Assembly (NCBI RefSeq): GCF_029643245.1
Contig: NZ_CP116398.1
Location: 3,348,001 to 3,412,000 of the forward strand
Origin: Methylomonas sp. EFPC3
Lineage (GTDB): Bacteria; Pseudomonadota; Gammaproteobacteria; Methylococcales; Methylomonadaceae
Direction: 5' to 3'
DNA: 64,000 bases
Below, piece after piece: positions 48,104 through 51,458 of this stretch. The notes beneath the pieces were generated by a model. That model saw only the letters and a list, made by a program, of their open reading frames with translations, did no database searches and was not told the DNA's origin. How positions within the stretch are numbered: position 1 is the first letter of the stretch; every line of letters begins with the position of its first letter. The position numbers and the translations under genes are program-made.

Positions 48104-48526
48104 TTAGCTGCCGGACGAGGTTTTAAAGCTGTCTTTAATGCTGATAAACATCTCTTTGACGCCGCTGAACAGGTTTGCCGGAGTCAACGCTTCTTTCAAA
48201 ATCACCAAGGTGCGGACGACAGCGACGACGAGGAAGCCGGCTATCGAGGGAAATAATTCGCACAAGCTGTTGACGAAGAAACCGCCGGCGTTTTCCTGGG
48301 TTCTTCTGTCGCTGACGCTGGCCAAATCGCGGTCGTAAGTGTCGCCGATGTCTTTGCCGCCCAGGGCATCGATGATCTCGATGCAGAAAATTTGGGCGAT
48401 GAATTCCACTGCGAAAAATGCTGCAGCGCACGCGGCCACCCACATCAAAACATTGGATTTTTTAGCCTTCATCATGCTCTGGTAAACCCAGATAGCGGTC
48501 AAAACCATTACAATGCCACCGATCAT
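48104..48526 (-). CDS. Hypothetical membrane protein
   Basis: 140 residues with two N-terminal membrane segments (IVMVLTAIWVYQ and LMWVAACAAAFFAVEFIAQIF) and a third around IAGFLVVAVVRTLVIL. The polar loop between them (DIGDTYDRDLASVSDRRTQ) is charged. I do not recognise the family. Confidence 0.75.
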   Translation of the reverse strand: MIGGIVMVLTAIWVYQSMMKAKKSNVLMWVAACAAAFFAVEFIAQIFCIEIIDALGGKDIGDTYDRDLASVSDRRTQENAGGFFVNSLCELFPSIAGFLVVAVVRTLVILKEALTPANLFSGVKEMFISIKDSFKTSSGS

Positions 48527-48642: not shown

Positions 48643-48670
48643 TTGACTTTGAGGGTGGCTAAAGTAACAT
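48643..48670 (+). promoter_or_regulatory. Sigma-70 promoter of the 42-residue protein gene
   Basis: TTGACT (48643-48648), a 16-base spacer, then TAACAT (48665-48670). This gives a leader of about 60 bases before the ATG at 48736. Confidence 0.7.
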
Positions 48671-48735
48671 ATGAACTTCGACCGCCAACGAAATGGCACA
48701 TTTTATAACAACTAACTTTAAGGTAGGAGGCACCC

Positions 48736-48864
48736 ATGGGAGCGATCTTAGATTTAACAGAAATGCTGAAAGAACCATCTGGCATGATCGGCGCGGTAGT
48801 AATCATCGCTGCTGGCTATTTCTTCGTAAAATGGGTTTTCGCTGAACCTAAAGACGAAGAATAA
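48736..48864 (+). CDS. 42-residue membrane protein of unknown function
   Basis: The frame starts MGAILDLTEMLKEPSGM and has one membrane segment (GAVVIIAAGYFFVKWVF) and an acidic tail (AEPKDEE). A strong ribosome site (TAGGAGG) lies 6 bases before the ATG. It has its own promoter and a strong terminator, so it is a single-gene, probably highly expressed unit. It is too short for the usual gene-length cut-offs. It may be a regulator or a small subunit of a membrane complex. No family is recognised. Confidence 0.85.
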   Translation: MGAILDLTEMLKEPSGMIGAVVIIAAGYFFVKWVFAEPKDEE

Positions 48865-48901
48865 GCAACGTTTCCTGCTCGCGCTTACAAAGCTTTTCTG
48901 G

Positions 48902-48942
48902 AAAAAGCGGCTACGGACAGATCCCGTAGCCGCTTTTTTTTT
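48902..48942 (+). terminator. Strong rho-independent terminator
   Basis: A 15-bp perfect stem (AAAAAGCGGCTACGG / CCGTAGCCGCTTTTT), a 7-base loop and a run of nine T. It lies 37 bases after the stop of the 42-residue protein. Confidence 0.95.
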
Positions 48943-49009
48943 CGCCCTCTGAGCCGGCTTTTCGGCAAAATCCCTTATAATCGGTAGTCTTTTGGCCTGC
49001 CGATCCATC

Positions 49010-50917
49010 ATGTACAAATCGTTAGTTCTAAAAATCAATAGGCTTTATTCGGAAAGGGTTCCGGCAACCGGCATCGGCTTGTTTCGGCTGCTGTTTGGTT
49101 TGGTAACGTTGCAGGAAGTGTTGTTTCTGCTGTATTTCAACCATCTGATTTTCGATCCGATTCCGTTCCTGGATGTCGAATTTCCGATGATTCCGTTCTT
49201 TCTCTGGCTGTGGGCAGTAGTGGCCATATGTCTGGCCGCGGGTTACCGTTGCCAAGTCAGCAGTATTGCTAACTATCTGTTCTGGCTGGTTTTCGTCAAT
49301 TTCACCCCGATGCAACGCGATTTTGACGGCGGCTTCGATTTGTTCATGACCGGTGCCAATTTCTGTTTGATCTTCATGCCGCTGGACCGGGCATTCGCCA
49401 TCGACGGATTACGCCGCAAATTGCGTAATCCGTTCGTTCAGTATTCCGCCTACGGACCGGAAACCGTCTCGGCCTTGACATACCATTTACCGGTCATCGT
49501 CTGCCTCGGCTTTTTATATTTCGATTCGGCGATTCACAAAATGTTCGCCGAGCATTGGCGCAACGGCCTTGGCGCCTGGCTACCGTCTTCCATGCCTTAC
49601 TACATATCGGCGCTCGATATGTCCTGGCTGCTGAACATCGAGATCCTGCAACAGACCATCGGTTACACCATCATCGTTTTCCAGTTCAGTTTCTTGTTTT
49701 TGTACTTCCGCCGGAATTTCAGGTGGTTGTACTTTCTGCTGGGATTGTCGCTGCATTTGGGCATCGCCCTCTCGTTGAATATCTATCCGTTCGGTATGGG
49801 CATGTTGATTTTCTATGCACTCATGATGCCGTTTGGTTGGTACCGTTTTATCGGAGCGCGGCTTTGCGCCAAACAGGCGGTTTTGACCGTGTTTTACGAC
49901 CAGCAATGTCCTCTGTGCAATCGCACGGTGTTGACCTTGAACCATTTCGACATATTGCGCCGTATCGATTTCAAGCCCGCGCAAATCCATGCTGCCGAAT
50001 ATCCGGCTTTGTCGCATTTGGGGCAGGAACAACTGATGAAGGATCTTTACGCGGTCGACGGTCAAGGCCGGGTCTATGCAGGTGTCGACACTTATTCGCA
50101 AATTCTGGTGGCGATGGGCTACCCGGCGCTGGCAGGCTGGACAATGCGCTTGCCGTTACTCTACGGATGGATTTGTAAGCGCTATCGGGCGATAGCCGAC
50201 AATCGGCAACGTCTAGTCTGCGACAGCAGTTGCGCTCCGCCGGTTGCCGACGCAGCCGAAAATAGTCTTTACCATCGAATTTTCGAGGCTGAGCATGCGA
50301 TCTCGGCCAGAAGTTGCGTCCACAAGATCAGTAAAGTGTTGTTGGTATTGATCTTGTTTCAACTCAACAGCAGCATACATTACGGTTTGCTTTACCGCTT
50401 GCACGTCGACACCCGGCAAACGCCGGTGACCAGCATGCTGAACAATATGAGCAATGCACTGTTGATGATGTCGCATACCTTTCTCGGCATCACGCCGCAT
50501 GCTTTGTATCTGCACGACCATTTCGAAGGCTACGACCATATTTTGGCGATTACCTATCTCGACGCGGATGGTACCGAGCGCTGGTTACCGTTCGTCGACC
50601 AGCAGGGCCGGCTGTTGGCGCCCAACTGGGGGCGGGTGCATTCGATGTGGGCCAATATCGCCGTTACGCCGAATATCGACGAATTGCGGCTGAAAAAATT
50701 CATCATGAAAATCACTGCTTTCTGGGGTATCAAAGGCGGTTTGGACCTGGATAACACCCAGTTCATCATCAAAATGAAGAAAATCAGGGCGCCGTTTACC
50801 TGGGAGAAAGATTTAAGAAACAATAATTTATCCGGTAGCTGGCAAACGATAGGCTCGGCACGCTGGGTCGGTAGGGAAATCAAAATCAGCCTGCCTATGG
50901 ACATCGACGCAATATGA
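49010..50917 (+). CDS. HTTM and DCC-type thioredoxin fusion membrane protein
   Basis: 635 residues from MYKSLVLKINR at 49010. The first roughly 290 residues form an HTTM domain (related to vitamin K-dependent gamma-carboxylase) with several membrane segments and RLLFGLVTLQEVLFLL and FDSAIHKMFAEHW. Residues about 300-400 are a DCC1/DUF393 thiol-disulphide domain with FYDQQCPLCNRTV (C-x2-C). A further membrane segment and a beta-rich C-terminus follow. It could oxidise or modify exported proteins. The natural partner is not known. A promoter and a small lipoprotein gene follow directly. Confidence 0.88.
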   Translation: MYKSLVLKINRLYSERVPATGIGLFRLLFGLVTLQEVLFLLYFNHLIFDPIPFLDVEFPMIPFFLWLWAVVAICLAAGYRCQVSSIANYLFWLVFVNFTPMQRDFDGGFDLFMTGANFCLIFMPLDRAFAIDGLRRKLRNPFVQYSAYGPETVSALTYHLPVIVCLGFLYFDSAIHKMFAEHWRNGLGAWLPSSMPYYISALDMSWLLNIEILQQTIGYTIIVFQFSFLFLYFRRNFRWLYFLLGLSLHLGIALSLNIYPFGMGMLIFYALMMPFGWYRFIGARLCAKQAVLTVFYDQQCPLCNRTVLTLNHFDILRRIDFKPAQIHAAEYPALSHLGQEQLMKDLYAVDGQGRVYAGVDTYSQILVAMGYPALAGWTMRLPLLYGWICKRYRAIADNRQRLVCDSSCAPPVADAAENSLYHRIFEAEHAISARSCVHKISKVLLVLILFQLNSSIHYGLLYRLHVDTRQTPVTSMLNNMSNALLMMSHTFLGITPHALYLHDHFEGYDHILAITYLDADGTERWLPFVDQQGRLLAPNWGRVHSMWANIAVTPNIDELRLKKFIMKITAFWGIKGGLDLDNTQFIIKMKKIRAPFTWEKDLRNNNLSGSWQTIGSARWVGREIKISLPMDIDAI

Positions 50918-51017: not shown

Positions 51018-51155
51018 ATGAAAAAAGTATTTTCTGTTTTGGCTATGGTTATGGTTATGGTGAGCTTGGCCGGTTGCATGGACGATCCAGACCAAGGCAA
51101 CCCAAAACCAAAAGGTTACGGTTCTACCAACCAACAAGGCAGCGGTATAAAATAA
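51018..51155 (+). CDS. Small lipoprotein A
   Basis: 45 residues from the ATG at 51018, with GGAGG upstream. The signal peptide ends in the lipobox SLAGC (Cys20). The mature part has only about 26 residues (CMDDPDQGNPKPKGYGS). Aspartate at +3 (C-M-D) does not give a clean avoidance signal, so the destination membrane is open. A close paralogue lies 180 bases downstream. Confidence 0.85.
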   Translation: MKKVFSVLAMVMVMVSLAGCMDDPDQGNPKPKGYGSTNQQGSGIK

Positions 51156-51335: not shown

Positions 51336-51458
51336 ATGAAAAAAGTACTGTCTTTATTGGCTATGACACTGATGATTGCCGGCTTGAGCGGATGCATGGA
51401 CGATCCAGATGCGTCAAAACAAAAAGTTTCCAGCGCTACTTCATCAGTACAGCTGTAA
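51336..51458 (+). CDS. Small lipoprotein B, paralogue of A
   Basis: 40 residues, too short for usual gene cut-offs. It starts MKKVLSLLAMTLMIAGLSGC, with the lipobox cysteine at 20 followed by MDDPD exactly as in lipoprotein A. The rest is unlike A (ASKQKVSSATSSVQL). GGAGG lies 7 bases before the ATG. The unit has its own terminator. Its leader is rather long (about 130 bases from the previous terminator). Confidence 0.85.
   Translation: MKKVLSLLAMTLMIAGLSGCMDDPDASKQKVSSATSSVQL

Follow-up and report, generated by a model that had tools for sequence, protein, structure and literature searches.

The window analysed here, a stretch of 64,000 nucleotides from Methylomonas sp. EFPC3, holds at positions 48736-48864 of its forward strand a gene for a predicted single-pass membrane protein of 42 amino acids, MGAILDLTEMLKEPSGMIGAVVIIAAGYFFVKWVFAEPKDEE, the presence of which tracks that of particulate methane monooxygenase (pMMO), the membrane-bound enzyme of methane oxidation. 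Its promoter (48643-48670, forward strand) was placed by a consensus scan, with a -35 box TTGACT at 48643-48648 and a -10 region TAACAT at 48665-48670, 16 bp apart, the latter within a conserved block, TAAAGTAACATA. By itself such a scan performs at chance level (2 found, against 2.8 expected). It is the conservation of the upstream sequence in 18 congeneric Methylomonas-type loci, where CTTGACttt.aa....gcTaAAGTAAcATAt ranks among the best-conserved blocks, that makes us accept the promoter, rather than the scan alone. The Shine-Dalgarno sequence AGGTAGGAGG (48721-48730, forward strand) is invariant in the genus, being identical in the same 18 loci, and AGGTAGG is retained in most other genera. 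Downstream, at 48902-48942 on the same strand, lies an intrinsic terminator with a 15-bp stem (48902-48916 paired with 48924-48938), a 7-nt loop and nine T at 48934-48942. It was missed by a simple terminator scan; its region folds at -30.4 kcal/mol, with a z-score of -3.94 and none of 200 shuffles as good, and relatives have terminators in the equivalent position, with a different sequence. The promoter, TAGGAGG ribosome site and nine-T terminator that a sequence-only reading had proposed around the 42-codon gene all stand. A conserved leader hairpin (GCCA...TGGC), hinted at by the alignment, is not claimed, its folding z-score being near 0.

The open reading frame is real and translated, and purifying selection on it is strong: 31 distinct Methylomonas-type sequences give a mean pS of 0.42 and a pN of 0.029, a pN/pS ratio of about 0.07. 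A chance, non-coding frame might be suspected from a length of just 42 codons and from the poor discrimination of the promoter scan, but the pN/pS ratio within the genus, conservation in two bacterial classes and the invariant ribosome site have already refuted this idea, and its probability is practically nil. The sequence-only reading had been staked on conservation of the amino-acid sequence, and this conservation is strong across methanotrophs.

The protein is also probably made in large amounts. The codon usage of its gene is nearer to that of pmoCAB in the same genome than is that of any window gene of at least 200 aa (41 genes), and 0 of 5000 random 41-codon fragments reached the same likeness to pmoCAB. 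A bias of this strength, on a par with pmoCAB, suggests near-stoichiometric amounts of the small protein. Together with the invariant ribosome site and the conserved promoter, this fits the earlier surmise of an abundantly made small protein.

Gene neighbourhood and linkage to pmoCAB

Description of the gene as an independent unit needs to be qualified. It is plausible for transcription, but the gene belongs to a conserved neighbourhood and sits, in some lineages, beside pmoCAB. In Methylomonadaceae the order is a divergent 141-aa gene, the 42-aa gene, a DCC1-like gene of about 635 aa, and metH beyond. In the window the divergent neighbour, a membrane protein of about 140 aa (48104-48526, reverse strand), has no Pfam or NCBIfam family; it is conserved beside the 42-aa gene in 54 loci. 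The downstream neighbour, of about 640 aa (48992-50917, forward strand, with a start possibly at the ATG at 49010), adjoins the 42-aa gene in 59 loci. Its product carries a DCC1-like thiol-disulfide oxidoreductase domain (PF04134, residues 300-410, E = 5e-19) after an N-terminal multi-pass region that is HTTM-like by inspection only. This gene lies near pmoCAB in several lineages and is possibly also linked to pMMO. Further on come two tiny lipoproteins, MKKVFSVLAMVMVMVSLAGCMDDPDQGNPKPKGYGSTNQQGSGIK (51018-51155, forward strand), conserved in the cluster, and MKKVLSLLAMTLMIAGLSGCMDDPDASKQKVSSATSSVQL (51336-51458, forward strand), both with pmoCAB-like codon usage. The DCC1 cluster does not include Methylococcus-type loci, those of family f6 or the alphaproteobacterial ones.

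The tiny lipoproteins form a family of 35-45 aa (MKKVLSLLAMTLMIVGLSGC.DDPDGSKQKVSSSTSSIQL) found in one to three copies 3' of the DCC1 gene, and they recur in many related loci (L074, L078 and L105 are examples). In a Methylococcus capsulatus-like genome, one of them (L203:882-1004) is located about 250 bp upstream of the 42-aa gene.

Physical linkage to pMMO genes differs from one lineage to another. In four loci (L074, L076, L093 and L102) a convergent pmoB follows at about 3-4 kb from the 42-aa gene, with pmoA beyond it where the locus extends that far; the distance to pmoCAB is about 8 kb in a genome of family f2 (G044). The genome of the window has both its pmoA-type genes some 500 kb from the 42-aa gene. 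Usually the 42-aa gene is outside the pmo operon, and it is single-copy where pmoCAB is duplicated. No promoter motif common to the 42-aa gene and pmoC was found, the region upstream of pmoC having its own TTGACA box.

Other small genes were also noted. In the f2 lineage, a gene of about 120 aa, MNKWVLMMVCFVFFILVGVATIIISDPTAEE..., is placed directly 5' of pmoC (L159:5056-5412 and L161:4900-5283). The M. capsulatus-like genome encodes two small single-helix proteins that are alike, MNDAKEEKDYFWFYIAGLVIAVVVTLAMV... and MEQEKDNFWLYIGGLIVFVIALVFVF... (L253:18586-18759 and L255:8200-8370), for which no match was found in the PDB.

Occurrence in genomes with and without pMMO

In methanotrophic Methylococcales the 42-aa gene is single-copy and near-universal. 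All 36 same-genus genomes examined, that of the window included, have it, and many of the proteins are 100% identical. A strong match, usually in one copy, is present in about 261 of the 301 Methylococcales genomes, a figure obtained by subtracting nine weak matches from the 270 retained at a loose threshold. Among named genomes, a scan identified hosts in Methylomonas, Methylotuvimicrobium, Methylobacter, Methyloprofundus, Methylococcus and Methylocaldum, as well as in Methylothermaceae and methanotrophic endosymbionts. Two families of the same order, f7 (Cycloclasticus-like) and f8, lack the protein, and in the tree their pmoA-like genes group apart from canonical pMMO. We note that f7, like the Beijerinckiaceae-like f53 and the Nitrosomonadaceae f21 discussed below, was assigned by gene content.

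Exceptions go in both directions. The 42-aa gene was undetected in some genomes with pmoA, namely two Methylococcales drafts of 99% completeness (G197 and G209), G038 and several less complete drafts, all of them fragmented assemblies. Conversely, no pmoA was found in six drafts that have the gene (G010, G017, G029, G030, G047 and G051). Drafts of this kind are expected where duplicated pmo operons break assemblies, and pmoA is known in other members of the genera concerned, as it is in that of a further draft, G710, to which we come now.

The most telling comparison comes from another class. In the alphaproteobacterial family f53, a profile search found the protein in 12 of 149 genomes, in genera g217, g316 and g314, as MGAILELTSYAATPVGMIAIIVIGAAAYFAARWVFTD and variants, with MGAILELTSYAATPVGMIAIIVIGAAAYFAARWVFSD-type sequences among the alpha versions. 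Weak matches in three further genomes of the family were within long open reading frames and were taken as chance. The pmoA gene (PF02461) is present in 11 of the 149, and all 11 also carry the 42-aa protein (Fisher p = 9e-16, a value that overstates independence because the genomes are related). This leaves one carrier, G710, a draft in 70 contigs from a genus that otherwise bears pmoA. As for soluble MMO, its marker PF02964 occurs in 11 genomes of the family, of which five have both pmoA and the 42-aa protein and six have neither. Three of these six belong to g314, and the pmoA-bearing member of g314 (G813) has the protein, so that inside one genus the 42-aa protein goes with pMMO. This contrast between congeners, and the fact that the protein recurs in a second class, carry more weight than the p-value.

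In a phylum-wide sample of 397 genomes, matches with E < 1e-10 were restricted to the three genomes with pMMO, and the ammonia oxidiser in this sample (G404) had none at that threshold. In f21, to which G404 belongs, a family of AMO-bearing, Nitrosomonadaceae-like ammonia oxidisers, 0 of 61 genomes has it; the weak matches in f7 and f21 were mostly within open reading frames of about 160-400 aa and were set aside as chance. No relative was found in viral contigs. A role as a general CuMMO subunit, serving AMO and hydrocarbon monooxygenases too, does not fit the absence from f21, f7 and f8. The pattern is what would be expected of an accessory subunit: the gene is present wherever canonical pMMO occurs, some fragmented drafts excepted, and absent without pMMO, even in methanotrophs, save in a few drafts. 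Its presence thus follows canonical pMMO in two bacterial classes, and what it tracks is true pMMO, not methanotrophy or copper monooxygenases generally.

Soluble-MMO methanotrophs share the remaining methane-to-CO2 pathway. This bears on the idea that the protein belongs to some other membrane complex needed by pMMO users, in quinol or electron supply for example. The same occurrence would be expected, and the DCC1-like oxidoreductase next door could hint at redox chemistry; against this, soluble-MMO-only methanotrophs are without the protein, and the DCC1 cluster leaves out the Methylococcus-type, f6 and alphaproteobacterial loci. We give this explanation very little weight.

An observation of another kind was made in two alphaproteobacterial methanotrophs (L182:8469-8588 and L183:6563-6682). 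A 39-aa open reading frame, MCDGEGLGLIQMAMTPxGLA...F.RWV.A[DE], lies there between a MerR-like gene and mercury-resistance-like genes and resembles the second half of the 42-aa protein. It may be a relative captured by the mer cluster, or a product of chance.

Predicted structure and possible role

AlphaFold, given 39 relatives, predicts a short N-terminal helix (residues 3-12), a break at P14 and one membrane helix (residues 14-34), the two helices having a mean pLDDT of 89, followed by a loose acidic tail; the single helix and acidic tail of the sequence-only reading are recovered. In all homologs read, with the alpha and f2 sequences aligned gap-free by inspection, the constant residues are M1, G2, L5, [DE]6, P14, [KR]32, W33 and V34. 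Apart from these end motifs the alpha and gamma versions have diverged. The Methylocystis-like alphaproteobacterial version has R32 as its sole basic residue, which by the positive-inside rule weakly suggests a C-terminus in the cytoplasm. Family members are 37-46 aa long and have no conserved His or Cys, nor any conserved Met after the start. We have therefore discarded a copper-binding role, the protein being unlikely to carry copper itself.

That the protein had no name recognised from its sequence has been borne out: no family of Pfam or NCBIfam covers it at curated cut-offs. The PDB, searched with both the gamma and alpha versions and with a profile, has no chain that matches it, in a copy that includes many pMMO entries (9cl1-9cl5 and 11ll, for example) and excludes chains of fewer than 20 residues or made entirely of unknown residues. 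A joined query of 14 small membrane open reading frames (13 besides the 42-aa one) from about 58% of the M. capsulatus-like genome likewise gave no PDB chain. The literature searched on the peptide motif, on small proteins of methanotrophs and on extra pMMO helices does not name the protein. A protein family with this tie to pMMO appears not to have been described before, with a reservation for the 2025 study of helices in native membranes considered below.

What might such a protein do? Occurrence, signature of abundance, linkage to pmoCAB and shape lead us to the view that it is probably an abundant single-helix accessory subunit serving pMMO. The earlier suggestion of a complex subunit gains support in this way, and occurrence now indicates pMMO as the partner. 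The short N-terminal helix (MGAIL[D/E]L...) would precede the proline break at P14; the membrane helix, at about residues 14-34, would end at the membrane surface with the invariant [K/R]WV, the loose acidic tail coming after. As a 'supernumerary' accessory helix packed on the pMMO trimer, the protein might stabilize either the trimer or the ordered arrays that it forms in intracytoplasmic membranes. Co-occurrence does not show contact with pMMO, and the association is what we infer from it. Several facts count against a subunit: many pMMO entries were searched and yet no PDB chain matches; the gene mostly lies outside the pmo operon and stays single-copy where pmoCAB is duplicated; the alpha and gamma versions differ beyond the end motifs; and some fragmented drafts have pmoA without a detected copy. 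To these we must add that the work on M. capsulatus by tomography of native membranes describes PmoA, PmoB and PmoC only.

The main rivals are membrane shaping and pMMO assembly. Methanotrophs with pMMO make intracytoplasmic membranes, while their soluble-MMO-only relatives are mostly without them, so that occurrence fits both readings equally and cannot separate a subunit from a protein that shapes or stabilizes the membranes housing pMMO but does not itself bind the enzyme. For this purpose an amphipathic N-terminal helix followed by a membrane helix, in high copy, would be suitable, and the predicted helix-break-helix layout and the abundance deduced from codons agree with it. Ammonia oxidisers, however, have internal membranes and no 42-aa protein, and the specific end motifs look more like those of a protein contact than of unspecific bending of the membrane. 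We consider membrane shaping rather unlikely. Little credence is likewise given to a transient factor for the assembly, insertion or copper loading of pMMO. The occurrence data would be the same, and such a factor would agree with the protein components proposed as missing when activity is lost on purification (PMC6189053), but a codon bias equal to that of pmoCAB speaks for near-stoichiometric amounts, and no conserved His, Cys or internal Met is available for copper.

Comparison with known systems

Biological oxidation of methane is mainly the work of pMMO, and the loss of its activity outside the membrane is a long-standing question. Tucci and Rosenzweig reportedly described, in PNAS in 2025, supernumerary helices associated with pMMO and AMO in native membranes. 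The crystal of pMMO from Methylocystis sp. Rockwell (4PHZ) also holds an unidentified helix (PMC8098663). In both cases the extra element is, like the 42-aa protein, a single membrane helix outside PmoA, PmoB and PmoC. Alphaproteobacterial genera with pMMO, similar to that of the Rockwell crystal, carry the family, and the 42-aa protein is a candidate for the extra helix of this crystal. No named PDB chain matches the family, so either the extra helices were modelled as unknown residues or another protein accounts for them, as may also be the case in the published identification. A bolder proposal would see in the 42-aa protein a fourth subunit of pMMO in both classes of proteobacterial methanotrophs, the long helix of the alphaproteobacterial crystals, belonging to the working enzyme or its arrays and lost or unnoticed in purified preparations, most of whose activity is gone. 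We hold this to be doubtful, if worth keeping in mind.

Missing protein components have been proposed to account for the loss of pMMO activity (PMC6189053). The 42-aa candidate, which has homologs in the two proteobacterial classes of methanotrophs and is cleanly linked to pMMO but not to soluble MMO or AMO, makes this idea directly testable. It is also relevant to the building of pMMO in other hosts, into which usually only pmoCAB has been moved.

Among accessory proteins already described, PmoD/AmoD is a membrane protein of organisms with pMMO or AMO, and the likeness ends there. PmoD carries a signal peptide and, besides a C-terminal helix, a periplasmic copper domain in which two Cys are conserved, and its curated members are at least 150 aa long (PMC6189053); at 37-46 aa and with no conserved Cys, the present family is not PmoD/AmoD. 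In archaeal AMO the extra subunits AmoX, AmoY and AmoZ (PMC10030591) are small CuMMO membrane subunits found partly by co-occurrence with the enzyme, as was the link of the 42-aa protein with pMMO. They have the support of blue-native gels and crosslinks and are archaeal, and we liken them to our protein by description only. Finally, CcoM, a subunit of 36 aa, is a tiny part of a large membrane oxidase (PMC10433244). This is an analogy, no sequence relation being claimed; very small accessory subunits of membrane oxidases are known as a kind.
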